Positions 4,039-23,752 of a stretch of 64,000 nt of DNA are shown piece by piece (the first letter of the stretch is position 1; the number at the start of each line of letters is the position of its first letter). Position numbers and translations under genes: made by a program. The notes below the pieces were generated by a model, which saw nothing but the letters and a program-made list of their open reading frames with translations, ran no database searches and was not told the DNA's origin. The stretch is from Hirudinaria manillensis (lineage: Eukaryota; Annelida; Clitellata; Hirudinida; Hirudinidae): the NCBI GenBank assembly GCA_034509925.1, contig CM067528.1, positions 124,001 through 188,000 of the forward strand, given 5' to 3'.

Positions 4039-5454
4039 CTATCCGTTCAGTTCTATGTAGACGGTTCCTTCGTCAGCAGATTCTCCGACGGCAGTCTGAG
4101 CATTTAAAAATACCACCTGGGCCAGAAGATTTTCTCTGTCGTTCGATCCTTCATCGTGCTCTTCTCTTCCAAGCTCCTTCTTCGCATGCTCCACTTTACT
4201 ACTCCCGAGCGACTGTTCGCTACATCCGAAGCAGCGACAACAACGATCGTCATTGGCCTCGGATCTCATGACGGAAATAATGTTGTTGACGGTAACCGTG
4301 GCATTGTCGATCCTTTCGTGACATGTATTTGAAGACGTTCCAAGAAAGAATCCTTTGAAGATTTGTCTGAACGTTCTGCTCATGCCACAATAGATGAAAA
4401 AGTTGAGTGGATAGCTTAGGAGAATGCAGAGATTGATGATAGTTTGGGACAATTCGCGTGTTTCCTTGGATAGGATGGTAAGGTAGAAGGAATTGTCCAA
4501 AATCATGACGATTAGCAAAAGGGCCAATGGAAACTCGACTACCAGGAAAACTCCTACCACGGCTACAAGCATTAACGTTGTCAAATTGTTTTCGGCCAGG
4601 CGCCTGCATTCGGTGCTGCGATTCTGCTTCAGCAGTTGTCTCCTGCGCTTCTGTGCCGCTCTCATGGCTTGGATGAGAAGGGCGTTGAAAATTATTAGGG
4701 TGAGACAGGGAATCATATGGATGAACACGACCCTGCTCCACCAATAAATATTGAAATACGAGTTCAAATTCCTGACGAAAGGATCATTGAAACCCTTCAA
4801 GCAGGCTGTTACATTTTTAGCCTCGTCCATTCGACTGAGTATCGTTGTTCGTTGAATATCTAGCTCGGCAAAGCGACAAATCTGAGAAAGCAAAGCGGCG
4901 AAGTATACTCCGGACACGGCTTTTACGGCATTAGCCACGGTGCACCAATGTTTGGCAAGTGTCGGCCTGCAAATATAAAAGTACCTCTGAACTGCTAGAG
5001 CCACGGTTAACCATATGGAAGCCGTGTGAAATACGGTCGGCGTGAAGTCCGTGAAGTAGATGTAAGCACGACACCACGAGTACGGCACCCATTCCTTGTA
5101 GTGCCCGAACGTGTAAAAATAAATGTAGCTCGGCAACGGGATGAGTCCAGTAAGCATGTCGGAGAAGGCTATGCCGACCAATAGGGTGTTGGTAGGACTA
5201 CGCATAGTCTTCTTGAGCAAGATGAGGCAAATAACCGAATTGGTCAACACCGTGAACAGAATTACAGGAGGAGAGATGAAACCACATATTGGCACGACGT
5301 ACTCGTTGCTGGGAACCAATACAAGGGGTCGGTGAGAATCCTGCTCTTCGTCATAGTCCTCTTCATCGTATTCTGAATCAGTCGTACGAGGAGGAAGCCA
5401 AGGCTGTGGCTGCAGATCGTTGTTCAAAGAAACGTTAAATCCAAAATGTGTCAT
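4039..5454 (-). CDS. Class A peptide GPCR, sex-peptide/myoinhibitory-peptide receptor type
   Basis: One uninterrupted exon of 471 codons from the ATG at 5454; an in-frame ATG at 5628 would add 58 residues that look like UTR. An acidic N-terminal tail (EYDEEDYDEEQ) precedes seven hydrophobic segments. TM1 runs near residues 55-80 (PPVILFTVLTNSVIC). The end of TM3 reads HTASIWLTVALAVQRYFYIC, so the usual D/ERY is QRY, and TM7 reads LLSYPLNFFIYCGMSRTFRQ with YPLNFFIY in place of NPxxY. These variants are typical of the protostome sex peptide receptor (SPR, the ancestral MIP/allatostatin-B receptor) and related FMRFamide-like receptors. The tail holds a Cys cluster (CCRCFGC) that may be palmitoylated. 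The receptor should act at the plasma membrane through G proteins. The ligand is inferred from family only. Confidence 0.85.
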   Translation of the reverse strand: MTHFGFNVSLNNDLQPQPWLPPRTTDSEYDEEDYDEEQDSHRPLVLVPSNEYVVPICGFISPPVILFTVLTNSVICLILLKKTMRSPTNTLLVGIAFSDMLTGLIPLPSYIYFYTFGHYKEWVPYSWCRAYIYFTDFTPTVFHTASIWLTVALAVQRYFYICRPTLAKHWCTVANAVKAVSGVYFAALLSQICRFAELDIQRTTILSRMDEAKNVTACLKGFNDPFVRNLNSYFNIYWWSRVVFIHMIPCLTLIIFNALLIQAMRAAQKRRRQLLKQNRSTECRRLAENNLTTLMLVAVVGVFLVVEFPLALLLIVMILDNSFYLTILSKETRELSQTIINLCILLSYPLNFFIYCGMSRTFRQIFKGFFLGTSSNTCHERIDNATVTVNNIISVMRSEANDDRCCRCFGCSEQSLGSSKVEHAKKELGREEHDEGSNDRENLLAQVVFLNAQTAVGESADEGTVYIELNG

Positions 5455-5628
5455 TGTTGCGAGGAGAAGATGAATGAAGACTAAGAGATTATGATGATGG
5501 CATGGAAGAGGCTGAGGAAAGATATTTCTGTTTCCATTAAAGCGTATCGAGGTTGAAACGAAGTAATTAATACCTGGAAAATAAATGAGATTGCGACGAT
5601 CGAGATGCTGAGTTAATAGTGATGACAT

Positions 5629-8600
5629 GGGATGATTATTTTCTTATGTTTTGAATTGAGCATATTAAAATTACCGCTTTTAGGAGAAATTCATTCTAAC
5701 CTCGCCAACTTCTAAACAGGCGTTAATTTGGAGCAGTGCGCAGGAGAATCGGAATATGCCATTCCTATAATTATGGTGAAATGAAGATCTTTGTCGTTGA
5801 CGACAACCTAGGATTTAAATGACAAAGTTTATAATCTCTGCCGACGTCTGAACTGCCTGTTCTTTCTTAATAATTCGGCGATGGCGGTTTGCAATCTGCT
5901 CCGTCATTTTTGGTAAGGCTCGATCGAAATAGCAGAACAATTTAAAGATGCACAATCAGGATAAGGTCATCATGTTGTCCAAATCAGATTTTTTAAACTC
6001 TTCAAAGCAGCCTGACGACAGAACCACGACGATATCTCGCTATGTTTTATTTTCAAGGCATTGGTGAGATAACAAATTATAGTACTTAACTGCGCTATCA
6101 ACGTGACGAGCGCCTCCACATTGCGCCATTTGTAAGGCGCGACAAAATGGGAATGTGAAATTATGACAAATGGTTCAAATACGATTAAACTCGGGAGGCC
6201 TTATGCCACATAAAGTCAAGCCACTTGCCAAGGCAATGAATTTGCCCAAGAAGGCTGTTAACAGTAAACTACGGTCCTCAAAATATAAATACTCCTGGAT
6301 TTCCAAGTAAGACATGCAGTGTTGTCAGATTGTAATAATGTCAAGAAAAATCTAAAATTTGTCACTTTTAAATATCTATGACTTAGATTATCACATAGAG
6401 TCAGGCAGGATATGGATATTTGTTTGCAAATATAGTTAGTTTCATAAATATAAAACACTTTAAATTTGAAAGAAACATCAGTGGTAAGAGGAGCAATAAT
6501 TTAACATTTCCTGTGCATTGACGATTACAGGCATAGGCAAATTAAAGATTATCGCAAATTAAAAGTTAAATTACTTGTTTTAACAACAATAATAATGAAT
6601 GCAGCGAATGTGCTGAGATATTTCCATGACTTTATGAATATGGTTAACCTTGTCCATATAAAAATTTGCATTGACCTATTTCTACTCTATTTCAGGTCCT
6701 TTCTGCGTAATCATAAAACTTTAATGTCAAACACAGCTTCTACCATTCAGCCACAAAGCATGATAACATCCTTTTAGATGTGCCTTTTTTCATGTGCTGT
6801 TAAATTCAGTATTAAATAAAATCAGAATCAAAGCGTGCCTCTTATAAGTAAATGAAATCTATTGTTTGGTTTAGTTGTTTTGGCAATTCTTTAAATGCAT
6901 GGCCGAAGAATTTCAAATTTAATATAATAAATGTTCAAATAGTTTTTCAAATGATCTCTTCATAGGGAAATAATGCTTTTGTAGTTTCGTACGGTCAACT
7001 TAGAGGTGGGGCACTAGGTATTCGTACATATACTAGTTCCTTCAGTAATTGATCCCATATCTGTAGGTCTTCTTTTGGAGTTTCGGAAACTTATATACAG
7101 AATACAGAGAATATAGAATTTTATTCCTGATATTTGTCTGCGACATAACTTTTGAGATAAACTTTCTTATAAAAAAAATATAAATAACGTGAACACTACT
7201 AATAATGGCAAAAAAAGATGTGATTTAGTTTCCGGTGCCTTCTGTTTTTGAAACGATCTCAGTTGATAGGGTTAGGATCCAAGCTGTAAGAGGCAATAAG
7301 TAGTCTTGCAATACAATGTATGGACATTTTTTGCGGATTTGTCGAAGGATAAAATTACATTTAACTTTAACAAAACTTCAGGCTTGCAAAGTCAATAAAA
7401 GTAAAAGTAAGCAAACACAATGAAATTTATAAATATCTTGATTTTATTATCACTCGCTATAATTCATTATAAAATCGATGAATGCATGGAAATTCAAATT
7501 TAGTAAGATAATGTTGAGAGGGTGCCAATTTTAAAGATTTAATTATCGCCCGTAGACCAGAAGCACTTAATTTTCATTTCCCCAACGGATGACTTGAGTA
7601 ACGAGAGAAAGTATCGAAGGGGAAAAAATTAACGAAACCAATAAAGCCAAGGACATCGTTGTCTGCTATTTGTTCGTAAGGTAGAGGATTATTTGAATGA
7701 AATCAGTCAAATACGTTATGAGTTTTGCTCAACGAGTGACAATAATATATATAAAAAAAAAAAAAAGAAAGTAGTATAGAAAAATTTGTGCTGTCGCGCC
7801 ACGCACAAATGAAGACAATTATCCTCAAGATTTTGCTGCGCTTTCAAAGAAATGAGAGAAAACACGCAATAATCATTTTATTCCTTTTCCTTTCTTTGGT
7901 CGTTATGTTGGCATGGCAACCTGCCGAAGGAACGAAAGCCGAGTGACTTTTGGCCAATCCGTTGAAAATACTATTGAATCACAATGATTCTCTGTTATTA
8001 ATTATTAATCTTAAAATTCTGTCAGCTGTGAACCACATTTTTGACAGCATTTTACATATTTCTTATTTGACAGATCCGATAAGGTTGTTTGCAACTTGCC
8101 TAATTCAAATAAAATTGGGTATACGAGCACAGTAATTTCGGAAATATCAAATTAATATTTTTTTCAATTACACTCTCAATTGTCTGAGCGTGTGCGGCCA
8201 GTTGGGGTGATGCACCTCTGGTTCTTGATTAAAAATAATCTCCAATGCCTCAAATTTGTGTGTCGAACGCTGTTTGAAAGAAATGTATAATTGAGGAAAA
8301 TTGCAAATTACACCATGGAACTTGGTGCTTTGTGTATTAATCTTCCAATAAGCTTAAAAAAAACAAAGGGACACGAATGCCAAACAAAGGAGAAAGGAAA
8401 TGTTTGCTCAGCCAACAGAGACTTTCTTCCAGACTACTGTCACGGATATCACCCTATTGCTTGCAGCTGCCAAGAGTGGCATGTTTACGTTTAATTTTCT
8501 ATTAATTTTGTTGCAAATTTTCTGTTGCGTTTACAAGTTATTTCGCAAAAAAAATATTGTTTAAGAACCATCGTAGCAATACTGCTTACTTTCTGTTGTG

Positions 8601-14548: not shown

Positions 14549-16393
14549 TCAAAAACACTTCTCGCTACTTGCAACAATGTCTTCTGAATTACATTCTTTT
14601 TGTATCGGATTTACCCGATCGTCGTCTCCGCACGAATTTACCGGCGGCTTCCGGTGTCTCTGCGGCTGCTGTACAATTGCATTCACAGGTTGATGGATTG
14701 CACTAGAAAAATGTTGCTGACTGGGTAAAATATTGTTCTGTTGAGCTAATAAAAATGCAATACAAGCAGGCTGTTGGTACAAATGTTGAGCAGCTTGTTG
14801 CTGTACCATTCCTTGAGTGATAAAATTATTCATGTTCGAAAAAGTGCAAGTATTCAATGGAAGAGCACCGTTAGACTTGTTCTGCGATTCTGCAGCGAGC
14901 CCACCGTTCCCGGACGGATGTTGTTTACTTTCCTTCGGAGGCGGGGACTTTGGTCTCATGTTCTCAATTTCCGTCGTCGTTCCGGTCAAGTGACCGGTCG
15001 TAGAGCGATCGAAATAACTCGAATAATCGTCCGCATTAAAATTACTTACGGCAAGGTCCGGTCCGACCGTCAACCAGCCCGGTCGGACGGAATGGTTTCT
15101 CCCAAAAACGTGGAGCCTCCTTCGACCCAGGCAAAAGTTCTCGATGATATTAAAGATCTCGTCCGGTTTTCTGTCGGGTCGATCCGGATCCTGATCCGCA
15201 AGTATCACGTCCACGTCCACGTTGGCATGGATAAAGTCTCCATCTGTGCTCCTTTTGACGGTGCCTTTTATACCCATCAGACAATGTTCCTATAACATAT
15301 AAGTAATTTTTATTGACTGCCAACCAATGAACCATTTTAGCAAAATTATTTGATAATATGATAAAAAAAAATGTGATAACAAAGGTAACCTTCGTCCTAC
15401 GGAATATGGCATCAGGTTCTAGATCTGGCTGATTTTCTTGGTAGATTTTGTTCGTTTTTATCCAACAAATGTCTTCGCATCTTCGGAAGCCCCATTTCTT
15501 GAGGCACTAAAATCGGCACGGTCGTCTTATAACTCGAGCGTCGGATGACCAAATTCATCATTAATAATAAATAGGATGATTAAGGGGCAAACCCACTTCT
15601 CTTCCCTTGTTAAGTCCCTCGACGGATCCACACCACAGCCACACGAATGACCGCGGTGCTGCCAGCTGTTCGACTGGCATTCGCTCTATCTGACAAAAAA
15701 AAAATTTCACTTGCTCCACAAAAATTGTACAAAAACTGAGAACATATTTAAATTGAATGCTAACCATATTAATTATGCATTACACTCATATAGATTAAAT
15801 TACATTGCCCTCTGCCATAAATGACATAACAATAGATAATCCACAAGGTGGCAGATCTATGCTTCAAGCACATATCAATAAATGAAATAGAATTTTTGAT
15901 ATATCTAAGAAAGGAAAACCCAAAATGTGAAATTTTCCACCATTACCCATACAAATTAGTTTACTCATGTCGCTAAAACAAGAATTCAAACCTCATCCCA
16001 GCTGCAGTATTCATCAAATTTTTTGCCAGAAATCTGTCCATGTTCAATTATAGGTGGTTCTATAAGGATGGCATCAAAATGTGACTTTAAGTCCGCTACA
16101 CTAAGTGTCAATGGATTACATCTCAGACTCATAGGAGGGTGATTTGTAGCTTCCACATGATATCGTTTCTTTGTCATGAAACTCTCCATTTTTGGATAAT
16201 GGTGATATCTGTTGTGATGTGCATCATTTAAAACAAAATTCTGTGGATTCTCGCCTGTCTTCATAAAATTGAACGAGTAATCAAATCTTGGATTGCTTGG
16301 AGACGACATTAAATCAATGTTTTTTCTAAAACAATTCCCTTGGCTCTTACTGCCAGTTTGTTTATGTTCATCAAATGGTTGATTGGAAGGCAT
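14549..16393 (-). CDS. Diverged METTL14 paralogue (copy A), N-terminally short
   Basis: Four exons close in frame: 15992-16393, 15597-15689, 15390-15506 and 14549-15289, giving 450 residues. The core is plainly METTL14: [64 protein letters not shown] and [14 protein letters not shown]14 is the RNA-binding, catalytically inactive partner of METTL3 in the nuclear m6A writer. This copy differs from its neighbour in several ways. It starts at an ATG four bases past a splice acceptor (16400-16398), so an upstream exon could exist. The motif position reads EPPI instead of EPPL. The two exons that flank this region in copy B are one exon here. The tail is Gln/Asn-rich without RGG repeats. The region before EPPI is strongly diverged. 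It may be a partner with altered binding, or a gene expressed in few tissues. Confidence 0.85.
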
Positions 16394-17380
16394 AAGTCTG
16401 AAAATAAACAAGTACATAAATATTTAACAACAATTTAAATATCAGAGACTAAAATTAAATGTCTTAATGTCATTTGCAATTTGTTTAGCTGGTAGGTTAT
16501 TCACTTCATCTAAACTCTTCCAATTATTAATTGCATCCAAAGTAATCGTATCTAAACCAACAATCTAGACCATAAACTTTATCTTAATACACAAATATAT
16601 CCGCGGCAAGATTAAGACTCAACCCTGAAAAAATACGTTTCATAAACTATCGGATAATAATAGCAAGGCACGACATACCGCACGGAATAAACAAAGACGC
16701 TGTAGATGCATCGAAATTTTCAAAACAGCAAACCTAATGCTTTTATTTCAAATTATAAATACCTTTTTTTTTAAACTCTCCTATGTTTTGATCAACTTTC
16801 TAAACAACCACAAATTGCTATTAAATACATTATTTACTATAATGAAATGAAGGCAGCGCAACCCCGAACATGACATGAAGTGCAAGATTTCCTGCACTAA
16901 TCCTAACTTTAGAAGTGTTCTGTGACTCCAAGCATAGACAAAACCCACCGCTCGAACCCTAACCCATCAACTTGGTTTCCCGCCATTCGTAATTTCGCTT
17001 TCTTCTGTGATACTATTAAATGCAATTCTCAAGTGACTTAACTACATTTCTTTATTAGATGGTTTCCAAAGAAGATTAAGTGAATTTTCCTTGACAGATG
17101 CTATTTCACAAAATAATTCAAGTAACAAAGCAATATAATATAATGTAACATTAATGTCAAGTAGTCTAGTATTACTAATTAGTACCCATATTTATTTAGG
17201 CATGTAAATAACCTGCAAATACTTACATAAAATATTTAGTTTAAATATATTTAGCTAAAATCATTAACCAGGAGTGTTCCAAATTATCATAAATAAAAGG
17301 CTCACAAAACATTATGTATGGACTGAGCCATGCCAGAATGAATCCAAATCAATTTAATACCAAGTAAGAGAAACCCCAAA
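16394..17380. other. Spacer between the two METTL14 genes
   Basis: Holds the promoter or missing 5' exons of copy A and the 3' UTR of copy B. On the minus strand a possible short spliced ORF is visible: an exon starting MHLQRLCLFRA with a GTATGT donor near 16680, and an open stretch near 16453-16565 reading LDAINNWKSLDEVNNLPAKQ and ending in a stop. I cannot link it to a family or to copy A with correct phase. Confidence 0.35.
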
Positions 17381-20300
17381 TCATCGAGGTAATGGCATCC
17401 AAGGCCTTGCTTGGGTGCCAATAGCTGTCTGAGCCTGATGTCGGGGCTGCCAGGACAGCCTCATAAGATGGTGTGGAGAGGGCATGGTATTTCTTGGTGG
17501 AGCAATTACACTTCGAGGGGGGGGAGCCAATCTAGATGTCAATTGTTGCTGTTGAGCAGCAGCAACCAACCCATTTCGAAGCATGGCTGTGGCTCCAGCA
17601 ACAATATCTCTTGTGAGAATGGGCATTCCAGCAACCTGAACAACACTCCCTGGTAATATGCCCATTGTAGGAGGAGGCAGTCCAGTCACTGGCGTTACCC
17701 CAGGTGCTACAGTACCCAAACTTGCAGCTACTATGGCATTGGATGTCAGTTGTTGCTGCTGTTGCTGTTGTTGTTGTTGGGTTGCATTTTTAGGAGGAGG
17801 CGACTTGGGTCTCAATCGTTCGATTTCGTCCGTACATCCGGTTAGGTGTCCCTCGACTTTTTGAGTAAAGTAACCTGAGTAGACTTCAGGTTCAAAGTTG
17901 GTGCTGGTGAGGTGAGGCCCGACCGTCAACCAACCGGGTCTTACTGACGTGTCCTTTCCAAAGAGATGCAGCCTTCTCCGACCAAGGCAAAAATGTTCTA
18001 TGATATGAAAAATTTCCATGGGTTTCTCATCCAAGATGTCTTGTGGCTCCTCCTCAATCACAAGATCGATGTCCACATTTGCATGAATGAAATCACCATC
18101 CGTACTCCGACGAACGGTCCCTTTGATGCCCATCAAGCAATGCTCCTGAAGAAAATACACTTTTTTATTTAGCCTAAGAAATTAAAAATTATCTACCTTG
18201 GTTCTTTGAAAAATTGCTTTTGTCTCTAGATTTTTCTTATGCCCAGGACTTTTAATGTTTGTCTTAATCCAGCAGATATCTTCACACCTTCTATAGCCCC
18301 ATTTCTTAAGGCACTTAAAAAACAATCAGTATATTATCGAGATGACGTTGATAACCTTTTGCCAAAATAAAGATGCAATAAATATAATGTGTGATAATAT
18401 ATGAGGCAATGATTGTCACAATACAAGTCTCTTTTGTATAGTGATAAATATATTTGAAAAATATAGCGTGGTTATTTAAAACAACCTTTCGTGCTGCATC
18501 GAGGCCATCGCTCGAGCCACACCAAATCCAAATGAAGGAACGTGATGCTGCAATTTGATCGATGGCAAGTCTCTCAATCTGAGGAGATCATTTTGAGATA
18601 TTATCAGATATGATGAGGTTGTCATATGTAAGAAACATTAACAGTTCATCTAATTATTTTATTATTCTTTATTATTAATTAACTGTTGGCAGGTGAGCAA
18701 GTAAAAAGCATTCTTTTGAAAATCGAATAAAGAAAACCCAACACTATTTAATCAATATTTTTTATTATTTAGTATCTTATTTAATCACTTGAAATAGTAG
18801 ATTCTCCAATTAACTAAAATAAGATACAAGTAATACAGTGAATTTTTCTAGGGAAAATTATAGCAAAATAAAAAAGAAAGAATAATATCAGACCTCATCC
18901 CAGTTCCAGTACTTGTCATAAGTAACTCCCAGTGTCCTCTGATATTCTTCCAAAGGAGGCTCCAGAAGAATCACATCAAACTTGCAATCAAGATCACGAA
19001 GGTCAAAGCTGTTAAGGTCGCACTTCAGATACCTAAAAATTATGAATAATTAAATTGAGTATATAAAGAAATAGATATAATAATAGTTAAAATAAATTAT
19101 TAGTTGATGCACTTATTATCATAATAATTACAACACTAGTAATTCACTCATATAGTTTAAGCATCAGGGACACTTAGACTATTTATTTTGCAAATTCTCA
19201 AAGACGATAGCATGAGCCAGGTAACGAACGTGACATGTAACAAGCCATTTTTTAGCCACAACTTCCATAAACTAAAATCTTTGAGCCAGCTTGCAATGTG
19301 TCAGAAGCATATGCTAGATTAAGCTTTTATTTGTCTTTTGTTTTTTAGTTTTGTTTATAAGAACTTTTTGTAAATCAGAAATAAAAAACAGGATCCATTT
19401 CCAAATAATTAAGTTTTTAGCTGATTAATAAACAGAATCAATAATATATTAAAACAATGACATCTGCATCATTATGGCTTTTTTATGATGTAACTCAGTT
19501 TTACTCTTAGCTGCTCATAAAAGTTTCTTTGGCCAATATTAATCAGTCAAATTTTCATTGATCAAATTTAGAAAAGTACAAACATTGGAGGTGTATTAGT
19601 CTGCTGAATAAGTTCATCCTTTTTCAGAATTAGTTCTCTCAACTTTGGATATTCCTCAAATCTATTGGTGAGGCCAACATCTCTAATGAAGTTCTGTGGT
19701 CTCTCTCCTGTGTCCACAAAGTGTTGGCAATAATCATTGTGAGGGTTGGCACTTTGAGTCCCCTTTATTGTATAAGTAATAAATAATTTTTCTTAAGAAT
19801 AATCTTACCTATATAACTCTAACAATGTTATATCCACTAATATTGATTAAACAACACCAAGTTAACTCAAACCTTCAGAAAAGCACTTGAATCTGTGTAA
19901 ATTTTCTCTTTGTCTGTCTCTTCATTCTGCAAACATTATTAGAAATATGCTGAATTATTTCCAATGAGCAGTAATTTTGACCAAGTTACCTACCATAGAC
20001 TCTTCATTGTTAAGAAGATTTTTTATGTAAATGTCCTCATTTAAGGCTTTCTTCGGTTTGTTGTTAAATATTCTGTTTCTGACAAAACATTGTGTGCACA
20101 TGTTTATATATCAGCATTGATAGACATCTTTTATCATTTCTAAATAAAAAACACTGGCAGCAAAGAAGCACAGAAGTAAACAAACATGTTACTAAGAAAA
20201 TTCTTAATATTCTGCCATTTAACTGAAGTTTACATTAAGAATAATTTTTGTTTTGTGGCAGGTAATTTAAATACTATAATTACATATAAATAACTCACAT

Positions 20301-20532
20301 ATCTCTTAGTCTTTGTTTCCTTTCTTCTAGTTCATATTTACTCTTGCATAAAGCATCCAATTTTCTTGCATCTTTTAATTTGAACTGAAAAAAACAATGA
20401 TCAATTCTGGAATAAAGATAACCAAAGCTTGAATGAAAGGAAGCTGAGAAAGCCAACAAGCTGCGCTAGCAAGATCCTTCTTTTCCCGGACAATTCTCTC
20501 CTCCTCCTCAAATTTTCAATTACCGAGGACAT
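17381..20532 (-). CDS. METTL14: METTL14, m6A writer subunit (copy B, full length)
   Basis: Nine exons close in frame to 530 residues: 20458-20532 (ATG at 20532), 20299-20384, 19994-20078, 19873-19926, 19584-19762, 18894-19032, 18486-18578, 18197-18313, 17381-18145. The N-terminal helix ([17 protein letters not shown]) is followed by [52 protein letters not shown] (the METTL14-type EPPL), [50 protein letters not shown] and RPGWLTVGP. It forms the nuclear METTL3-METTL14 heterodimer and contacts RNA rather than catalysing. After [10 protein letters not shown] the C terminus is a poly-Gln run and Pro/Ala-rich sequence; the Arg-Gly repeats known from vertebrate METTL14 are absent. The start lies 316 bp from the divergent MRPL52 ATG. 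Confidence 0.95.
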
Positions 20533-21693: not shown

Positions 21694-22944
21694 CTAAACA
21701 TGCTTTTGAAGTGTTTGAAAATAGTGGAAGCAGTCTTTGAAATCTTCAGTGGTGCACCCAAATTGTTCATACCAGTGCACATAAGCTTTCACTTGAAATT
21801 TATTAATTGCAGACTTTAATGTTTTTCTGAGATAGTTCTGCATGAACTCATTATTTCTGTAGGCTAGGGTCAGTGAAATACAAGGTTTGCCTTTAGAGAT
21901 ATTGACTGGTGATTCCCAGAACATCTGAGGTGTAGAGAGGTCAATTCTGCAGGATTCTCTGATTCTTGTATTGATATGATGTGTCACATCATTGGATAAT
22001 GGAACATTATCACTGCCTCTTGCCACCAAGAAGTAGCCAGTGTCACTTTTGTGCTTAATTCTTGGGGTTTTCACTTGAGTTTGGTTGAATATGTTGCATG
22101 GCTCAATGAAGTCAAGTAATTTGTTAACAGCTTTGTTCCAGGAAGTGAATGGCTCAGCAACTGAACATGACAGAAGGAATTTGTGCTTGCTTGGAGTCAT
22201 GGCTTCAATTAGGTTTTCTAGCATGCAAACATCATTGTAGGATTGAGTGTTTGTTGGCAGGAACAGGCCTGCCAGATTTTCTGCAACTAGGGTGTTGAGA
22301 TCCAAAAAATTAACGCCTTTGCTGTTCGGTGATTTACAAACGGATGTTTGTACCATTAATTTGTCGTTATATTGCATCAAAACGGCATCACATTGTTCAT
22401 TTAGTCTATGAAGTGCTAGCAGAACATTGTAATGCTGCATGGGAGAATCACCTGACTCGAACGGGGCTACTGAGCAGGTTATTAAAGGTCTTGAGGGTAT
22501 TTCTTCTTTGATCAACTCTGCGAGGCGTGAGCTGACGCCTGAACCGGTGCCTCCAGATAAGCTATGGATCATCAAAGTCGCTTTGTGTCTATCGCTTCTT
22601 TCGCATTCCTTTCTCCATTCTTCTAATGCACGCTCAAAAATGTCGTCCAAGTGAGAAAGCCTGCCTTTATAATATCCCATTGCCCAATTGTTTCCGCGGG
22701 CGCATCTCTCTGTGATGATACATCCAGGTCTGAAGATGTGCGAACCACAATTCTTCTGCTCAACGATTTTATTTATGATCTTTATCTCTGTGTCTATGTT
22801 GATTGATCTGTAGTAAAGCATATTATTGCGAGGATTTTCCAGCATGAAACAACTTTTATCCAAATTGCTGTTTTGAACAGCATTCCAGAAATGATCTCCA
22901 ATTTGATTTCCACACTGCCCGATTTGTAAAACTACGCAAGACAT
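21694..22944 (-). CDS. TUBD1: Delta-tubulin, intronless
   Basis: A single open exon of 416 residues. The N-terminal GTPase loop reads IGQCGNQIGDHFWNA and the tubulin signature is LSGGTGSG, with NNWAMGYY before it. The C-terminal helix region AYVHWYEQFGCTTEDFKDCF matches the delta-tubulin AYIHQYTKFGIEEEDFLDSF pattern rather than alpha, beta, gamma or epsilon. Delta-tubulin supports triplet microtubules in centrioles and basal bodies. Human delta-tubulin has 453 residues, so this copy is somewhat short, mainly in loops. The absence of introns is striking next to neighbours with 4-15 exons and suggests a retrocopy that has kept its frame. A fast-evolving gamma-like tubulin is a less likely reading. 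Confidence 0.85.
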   Translation of the reverse strand: MSCVVLQIGQCGNQIGDHFWNAVQNSNLDKSCFMLENPRNNMLYYRSINIDTEIKIINKIVEQKNCGSHIFRPGCIITERCARGNNWAMGYYKGRLSHLDDIFERALEEWRKECERSDRHKATLMIHSLSGGTGSGVSSRLAELIKEEIPSRPLITCSVAPFESGDSPMQHYNVLLALHRLNEQCDAVLMQYNDKLMVQTSVCKSPNSKGVNFLDLNTLVAENLAGLFLPTNTQSYNDVCMLENLIEAMTPSKHKFLLSCSVAEPFTSWNKAVNKLLDFIEPCNIFNQTQVKTPRIKHKSDTGYFLVARGSDNVPLSNDVTHHINTRIRESCRIDLSTPQMFWESPVNISKGKPCISLTLAYRNNEFMQNYLRKTLKSAINKFQVKAYVHWYEQFGCTTEDFKDCFHYFQTLQKHV

Positions 22945-23752
22945 TTTAAAATTAAGTCATAATAATAATCACTTTTAACATTTATGGTTAAGTCATTAAT
23001 TCGGACCACTTTTTCATCGTCAATATGAATTAATATGTCTTTCCGACCAATTTCATCTAAAATGTAATATCCAATTCTGTTTGCTTATATACTGATTGTG
23101 TGGAATTCGCCATGTATTGCTTCACCATGTCGATCGATACAGCTGCCGAAAAGCCAGCAGAACAAATCGAAATCGTGCCCTGCTTCTGCAGCGGGGCTTG
23201 TCGTGGTAATTTGAGATTATTTCTCAACATAAACACGCCGGTACTCTTAGAATAAGTCGTCGATGCAGATTCACGTTTAATGTCTTTCTCGATTCATGAA
23301 TATTGGTGGGTCCCTTGATTTCTTGTCTCAGGTCTTTAATGAACATGGCAAATTGGACGATCAACCTAAATTAATTATGTTTGAACATTTCTTTATTCAG
23401 TATAAAGTATAATTTTATAAACTTCGCCATTATTTTCCATGACAGTTCACTAAATGTCAGGAGCATGTAGCTCTACGTTATGCGCAAACGATAAATAGAG
23501 CTACTGTCGACGATGTCGTAAGTTTGGCTGGCTCGTTGCGAGTACCGTTCGTAAACACTCGGGATTCAGTTACTTTAATGGAAATAAAGCCTAGTTAGTT
23601 TGAGCAAAAAGATTTATAAACTTATATCCGCCACCCAGAATGAAAATCGACATTTTGAATAAAAATTTACTTTTATACATATCCGCTTTCGTCTGCCAAG
23701 GCGTTATGTTGGAAATGGACTGACTAGGACTGTAACAGATTAAATTTCTGTT
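22945..23752. other. Divergent spacer between delta-tubulin and the 723-residue orphan gene
   Basis: Contains a 47-codon plus-strand ORF from 23112 (MYCFTMSIDTAAEKPAEQIE...) with a cysteine cluster CFCSGAC. I cannot tell whether it is a 5' exon of the next gene, a small gene or chance. Confidence 0.35.

Follow-up and report, generated by a model that had tools for sequence, protein, structure and literature searches.

A diverged, intact METTL14 paralog in Hirudinaria manillensis and a candidate second m6A writer core

The sequence examined here is a 64,000-nucleotide stretch of the annelid Hirudinaria manillensis (GenBank assembly GCA_034509925.1, contig CM067528.1, positions 124,001 to 188,000), hereafter the window; the source assembly comprises 148.4 Mb in 23 contigs, labelled C1 to C23, and the window is C3:124001-188000. 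The minus strand of the window carries, in tandem, two intact genes for METTL14, which together with METTL3 forms the core of the N6-methyladenosine (m6A) writer; METTL14-B is the canonical copy and METTL14-A is diverged. Each core part of the writer (METTL3, METTL14 and WTAP) was found to have a diverged, intact second copy in this genome, which suggests that two m6A-writing complexes may be present in one animal. METTL14-A is probably an old functional METTL14 paralog; the second writer core in which it would serve would recognise RNA differently and be coupled to VIRMA in a changed way.

The second-copy genes exist, are intact and are under constraint, and the residues for S-adenosylmethionine (SAM), zinc and the RNA groove are kept in them. 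The changes confined to the second set fall at the zinc-finger contacts and loop 462-480 of the second METTL3 and in the missing METTL14-B-like N-terminus of METTL14-A. All six gene models (the METTL14, METTL3 and WTAP pairs) are free of internal stops. Published residue positions, contacts and gene counts are cited throughout from excerpts of the papers named.

The tandem METTL14 pair

The initial annotation of this DNA described two complete METTL14 cores in tandem on one strand, about 1 kb apart, and the gene models bear this out, with 983 bp separating the METTL14-B stop from the METTL14-A acceptor. METTL14-B (20532-17381) has 9 exons and encodes 530 residues, and METTL14-A (16393-14549) has 4 exons and encodes 450. 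Positions in the window are as follows.

20458..20532, minus strand: METTL14-B exon 1, with start codon and N-terminal helix region
20299..20384, minus strand: METTL14-B exon 2, ending in phase 2, could join METTL14-A in frame
19994..20078, minus strand: METTL14-B exon 3
19873..19926, minus strand: METTL14-B exon 4
19584..19762, minus strand: METTL14-B exon 5, holding a 23-residue block
18894..19032, minus strand: METTL14-B exon 6, with EPPL
18486..18578, minus strand: METTL14-B exon 7, 93 bases, phase 0
18197..18313, minus strand: METTL14-B exon 8, 117 bases, phase 0, with CWIKTN
17381..18145, minus strand: METTL14-B exon 9, with a 25-residue block, Q-rich tail and stop
16398..17380, minus strand: inter-copy stretch of 983 bp, the 5' region of METTL14-A
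15992..16397, minus strand: first coding exon of METTL14-A, with EPPI; its acceptor directly precedes 16397 and its first ATG is at 16393
15597..15689, minus strand: METTL14-A exon of 93 bases, phase 0
15390..15506, minus strand: METTL14-A exon of 117 bases, phase 0, with CWIKTN
14549..15289, minus strand: METTL14-A last exon, with a 24-residue block, diverged Q-rich tail and stop

All assigned introns of both genes are GT-AG, and the exons of 93 and 117 bases, said in the annotation to share their phases, start in phase 0 in both copies. Three introns are common to the two genes and two other METTL14-B introns are absent from METTL14-A, whose first coding exon covers the places of two METTL14-B introns (after FLK and at PPM). 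An origin of METTL14-A as a retrocopy was ruled out by the three shared introns.

METTL14-A scored 366 bits to human METTL14, compared with 94 bits to METTL3, and 180.5 bits to the MT-A70 domain (cut-off 23.9), and scores of this size exclude a chance likeness. Over 299 aligned core sites, identity was 71.2% between METTL14-B and human, 52.2% between METTL14-A and human and 55.9% between the two copies; 71 sites differed only in METTL14-A, 14 only in METTL14-B, 25 only in human and 47 in all three, and the METTL14-A branch is accordingly long. A haplotig or assembly duplicate was ruled out by the 56% core identity of the copies. A broader explanation by assembly artefact or foreign DNA, in favour of which a second COX1 of equal score on contig C9 can be cited, would have to account for two METTL14 copies that are 56% identical in the core, stand on one contig and share introns, and for the same tandem pattern of METTL3 on another contig; we regard it as extremely unlikely.

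A sequence block said in the annotation to be kept in both copies matches the human one exactly only in METTL14-A; METTL14-B carries R for K in this block, over the 15 residues compared. At the site where EPPL replaces the catalytic DPPW, METTL14-A has EPPI (E192, P193 and P194 kept, L195I). All RNA-groove sites examined in METTL14-A are basic (R245, R254, R255, K297 and R298 kept, R249K as in METTL14-B), and F281, Y119, T126 and F133 are also kept, with V280I as in METTL14-B. METTL14 R298 and METTL3 R471 are positions tied to the GGAC/GGAU preference (PMC12864844).

Divergence of METTL14-A is strong before EPPI and in the tail, as annotated: its first exon and its tail are both much changed. 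The dimer-capping N-terminal extension (human 117-136) is present in diverged form (I134V, N117F, D136N), and 11 of the 25 residues at 112-136 are identical to human, compared with 23 of 25 in METTL14-B. The alignment score of the two C-tails was reached by 8 of 2000 shuffles, and this likeness was given no weight because both tails are Q-rich. METTL14 outside residues 107-395 is dispensable for activity in vitro (PMC5023411), so METTL14-A could still act as a partner.

METTL14-A is without about 104 N-terminal residues of METTL14-B, and no METTL14-B-like N-terminal helix was found in it (its residues 1-32, aligned to METTL14-B residues 1-105, gave a score of 19, which 1271 of 2000 shuffles attained). 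The helix could come by splicing from METTL14-B exons through an in-frame joint, and the two copies might on this basis be one composite gene in which METTL14-A is an alternative 3' cassette, with METTL14-B exons 1-2 skipping exons 3-9 and joining the acceptor at 16397 to give an isoform with the other methyltransferase (MTase) core. Exons 1-2 sum to 161 bases (phase 2), the fused frame runs for 505 residues to the METTL14-A stop, the first coding exon of METTL14-A starts at an acceptor, and METTL14-A alone is without a METTL14-B-like N-terminal region. An in-frame joint, however, would arise by chance about one time in three, two of the nine METTL14-B exon ends tested were compatible (the ninth being the gene end), and METTL14-A has an ATG four bases inside its first coding exon, with room for a separate 5' exon in the 983 bp that precede it. 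Such a composite gene is improbable.

Second copies of METTL3 and WTAP

A search of the genome contigs for the MT-A70 family, for which, as for all searches of this kind reported here, locus counts are lower bounds, gave 8 matches, representing the METTL14 pair, a tandem METTL3 pair on C2 and one further locus that, from its sequence, we take to be METTL4-like. The METTL3 and WTAP genes are the following.

C2:7065111-7062498: METTL3a, canonical, 601 aa, 4 exons
C2:7067223-7065258: METTL3b, 570 aa modelled, 3 exons, start uncertain, just upstream of METTL3a on the same strand
C2: WTAP1, 276 aa, 204 bits to WTAP
C8: WTAP2, 431 aa in a model that probably lacks a first exon, 157 bits to WTAP

The METTL3b stop precedes the METTL3a ATG by 146 bp on the same strand (C2:7065258-7065111), and because the gap is so small the two genes may share transcription, or a very short promoter may be used. 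METTL3a intron 1 (C2:7064701) has an apparent GC-AG splice pair.

METTL3b scored 474 bits to METTL3, and its MTase domain is 77% identical to that of METTL3a and 76% to that of human. Its SAM pocket agrees with METTL3a at 16 of 16 sites, DPPW and Tyr406 included, and with human at 14 of 16, the two differences (I378L and L409M) being common to METTL3a and METTL3b (SAM-pocket and interface sites from PMC5023411). In the interface loop 462-480, 6 of 19 positions are changed in METTL3b against 0 of 19 in METTL3a; W475, L476, R468, H474, H478 and R471 are kept in the METTL3b loop, and R465 is replaced by S. The CCCH zinc fingers of METTL3b keep C276, C284, C294, H298, C314, C320, C326 and H330 (ligands assigned by spacing). 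Of six zinc-finger residues that in human METTL3 show the greatest RNA-induced shifts or lose their lines (PMC6418081), three are changed in METTL3b (F316Y, H322N, M323T) and none in METTL3a. Residue R301 is K in both copies, a replacement also seen in planarians (PMC12864844). Where the canonical leader and linker stand, the METTL3b N-terminus is R/K/S-rich by eye.

Two WTAP loci were found. WTAP2 matched the Pfam Wtap domain with 159.4 bits (cut-off 35) and carries a long basic/serine-rich tail (by eye). At the 12 human homodimer coiled-coil residues listed in PMC9715571, WTAP2 differs from human at 8 and WTAP1 at 4.

Searches of the genome contigs gave one locus each for VIRMA, HAKAI, METTL16, METTL4, TRMT6 and METTL1, and two for the seventh control, Mago. 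Duplication was thus seen in 3 of 3 writer-core genes and 1 of 7 control genes (hypergeometric 0.033), a comparison that is suggestive only, the controls being self-chosen and the sample small; SPOC (5 matches, a multi-gene family) was left out of the single-copy controls as uninformative. The initial annotation had suggested that METTL14-A could form an alternative METTL3 complex. That possibility is better supported now that the genome is seen to hold METTL3b, whose SAM pocket is intact, and WTAP2.

Selection, age and the case for a second core

Divergence within each pair was measured over core codons with a pairwise codon model, in which the ratio of nonsynonymous to synonymous rates (dN/dS, omega) averages both copies. 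Values are given below with differences per codon positions 1/2/3 and twice the log-likelihood difference (2 delta lnL) for the rejection of omega=1.

METTL14 pair, 299 codons: 0.34/0.24/0.63; omega at the zero boundary, dN 0.33, dS not estimable; 2 delta lnL 185
METTL3 pair, 308 codons: 0.29/0.21/0.60; omega 0.079, dN 0.27, dS 3.4; 2 delta lnL 196
WTAP pair, 216 codons: 0.51/0.30/0.64; omega 0.091, dN 0.62, dS 6.8; 2 delta lnL 55

A dN/dS near 1, which the annotation had named as evidence against its proposal, was thus rejected for the METTL14 pair, and its view that METTL14-A is not a pseudogene holds: the frame is intact, the pair is under strong purifying constraint and functional residues are kept. 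METTL14-A might instead be in decay, or a duplicate silenced too recently for its frame to have been broken, and its faster evolution and much-diverged first exon and tail would fit that picture. Silent sites are saturated, however, with no stop or frameshift in the frame, omega=1 is rejected for the pair, and functional residues and splice sites are kept. A freely drifting copy is unlikely to have stayed open over such a time, and we give decay very little credence.

Since dS has reached saturation in each pair, the METTL14, METTL3 and WTAP duplications are all old. Trees were built with three sequences per family, which leaves the root weak, and were rooted by METTL3/METTL14 reciprocity or by 10 bacterial MT-A70 proteins; the latter were drawn from 17 bacterial loci among 47 pattern matches in genome contigs searched with the METTL3 alignment. 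In viral contigs, relatives made up 0 of 43 pattern matches with the METTL3 alignment and 36 of 276 with the METTL14 alignment (26-31% identity; unused in the trees). METTL3b fell outside human plus METTL3a with support of 93/92 (METTL14 root) and 92/94 (bacterial root), and METTL14-A leaned outside human plus METTL14-B with 65/66 (reciprocal root) and 72/86 (bacterial root). The approximately unbiased (AU) test keeps a lineage-specific duplication (both pairs together, p 0.058; METTL3, p 0.090; METTL14, p 0.295); bootstrap resampling of estimated log-likelihoods (bootstrap-RELL, 0.0165) and expected likelihood weights (c-ELW, 0.030) rule out the tree in which both pairs are lineage-specific. 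A younger origin than the trees imply is indicated by the tandem arrangement of both the METTL14 and the METTL3 pair. METTL14-B (18145), METTL14-A (15289), METTL3a (C2:7062788) and METTL3b (C2:7065578) each have a phase-0 intron immediately ahead of EHC(L/I); being in all four genes, it may predate the METTL3/METTL14 split, and the introns shared by METTL14-A and METTL14-B are for this reason no proof of recent duplication. The duplications are old, and the data accommodate an origin before as well as after the start of the annelid line.

In a stronger form of the proposal, METTL3b, METTL14-A and WTAP2 would make up an ancient separate animal writer with another RNA target rule and another tie to VIRMA, possibly duplicated before the annelid/vertebrate split and lost elsewhere; we hold this only tentatively and consider it doubtful.

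In the second writer core that we favour, METTL3b would do the chemistry, methylating adenosine with METTL14-A as its partner, and METTL14-A would be the non-catalytic, RNA-holding subunit that completes the groove. WTAP2 perhaps joins this core. The changes in the zinc-finger RNA patch of METTL3b, the loss of Arg465 and the altered interface loop would shift the choice of target or partner. In the human model (PMC9715571) the docking place of the METTL14 N-terminal helix is close to VIRMA, and because METTL14-A is without this region, the second core may be tied to VIRMA more loosely, or otherwise, than the canonical complex.

The main rival is subfunctionalisation with cross-pairing, in which either METTL14 would pair with either METTL3 and the copies would differ in the dosage or tissue-specific expression of one m6A activity, with no distinct complex. 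It draws on the retention in both copies of the core dimer region, the basic groove residues, METTL14 R298 and METTL3 R471. Set against it are the differences of the second copies at the zinc-finger RNA patch, R465, the interface loop, 8 of 12 WTAP dimer residues and the METTL14 N-terminus, and the long METTL14-A branch (71 against 14 copy-specific sites). Cross-pairing is, on balance, rather unlikely.

Several observations weigh against a distinct second core. The dimer region beta4-5/alpha4 (221-265) is identical to human at 33 of 45 sites in METTL14-A and 35 of 45 in METTL14-B, and with conservation about equal in both copies METTL14-A could equally pair with METTL3a. METTL3b changes are only modestly enriched in the interface loop relative to the rest of the domain (Fisher p 0.031, or 0.014 when the C-terminal tail is left out), in a test made post hoc. 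A leader helix, which in human METTL3 binds WTAP, is not clearly present in METTL3b: a likeness was seen by eye at TSWCERYRLIRERLKNEF, but local alignment chose another stretch, with weak significance (best local score 34, reached by 48 of 2000 shuffles). The averaging of omega over both copies also counts here. Finally, duplication extends beyond m6A genes: Mago nashi was found at two multi-exon loci (C2:10018157 and C7:4823776). Mago nashi is usually one gene.

The animal m6A writer is currently regarded as one obligate METTL3-METTL14 core. A second full set of catalytic subunit, partner and adaptor beside single VIRMA and HAKAI loci could reveal which parts set target choice, and for what METTL14 is needed (scaffold, RNA holder or VIRMA anchor); it would be a natural experiment in the co-duplication of an obligate heterodimer.

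Genome context and known systems

A search for the YTH domain gave 5 matches, of which 3 are nearly full-length (YTHDF-type by eye) and 2 partial. The three YTHDF-type reader loci are listed here.

C8:5626867: YTHDF-type reader locus
C8:5271465: YTHDF-type reader locus, short and recent-looking, 83% DNA identity to C8:5626867 over 506 aligned positions
C5:6906012: YTHDF-type reader locus

METTL14-B has as its neighbour on the same strand an intronless tubulin-family frame (window 21694-22956, 131 bits to PF00091), delta-tubulin-like by eye, and at window 4039-5643 lies a G-protein-coupled-receptor-like open frame in a single exon of 534 codons, of peptide-receptor type by eye. The mitochondrial contig C23 (15,581 bp) contains COX1 with nine in-frame TGA; its frames, named by eye, lie on one strand in the order cox1, cox2, cox3, tRNA-Gln, nad6, cob, nad4, nad1, nad3, nad2, which is the usual annelid order. 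A full-length COX1 match at C9:3026446-3027786, with a score equal to that of the mitochondrial contig, may reflect either recent insertion into the nuclear genome or a join made during assembly.

The MT-A70 complexes 7yi8 and 7f4l, which we take to be of the ciliate MTA1 type, match METTL14-A weakly (52-56 bits) and are far more distant than animal METTL3/METTL14; by sequence match, no sign of the 7yi8/7f4l type was found in the second gene set.

The human METTL3-METTL14 core (PDB 5il0, 5k7m, 5l6d, 6ttp) is resembled in the SAM pocket, DPPW, CCCH fingers and basic groove residues kept in METTL3b and METTL14-A. It is unlike the present case in that a second, parallel gene set exists here, METTL14-A is without the N-terminal region, and METTL3b departs from the human protein in its N-terminus (R/K/S-rich by eye), at the RNA patch of the zinc fingers, in the interface loop and by R465S. 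Both WTAP copies match WTAP (7vf2, 7yg4) of the m6A-METTL-associated complex (MACOM), with VIRMA and HAKAI at one locus each here; WTAP2 departs from it in its long basic/serine-rich tail and in 8 of 12 homodimer residues.

The tandem duplication of m6A genes has been described for plant gene families (titles and abstracts). No duplicated METTL3-METTL14-WTAP core in an animal appears in titles and abstracts of the open-licence literature, among the matches listed, and none is mentioned in the excerpts of tick and rotifer papers (PMC12470784, PMC12341819). In the planarian Schmidtea, METTL3, METTL14 and WTAP are reported as one gene each (PMC12661160), whereas all three are paired here; the expanded YTHDF readers of planarians (PMC12864844) have a likeness in the at least three YTHDF-type loci of this genome (type by eye). 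A related case is the nematode Bursaphelenchus xylophilus, an animal reported to have two METTL14 genes (BxMETTL14a/b), with writers described as dispersed over chromosomes (PMC13203692); the excerpt of that paper makes no mention of a second METTL3 or WTAP. The annotation's statement that METTL14 is normally single-copy in animals thus agrees with Schmidtea and not with B. xylophilus, in which an animal METTL14 pair is already in print.

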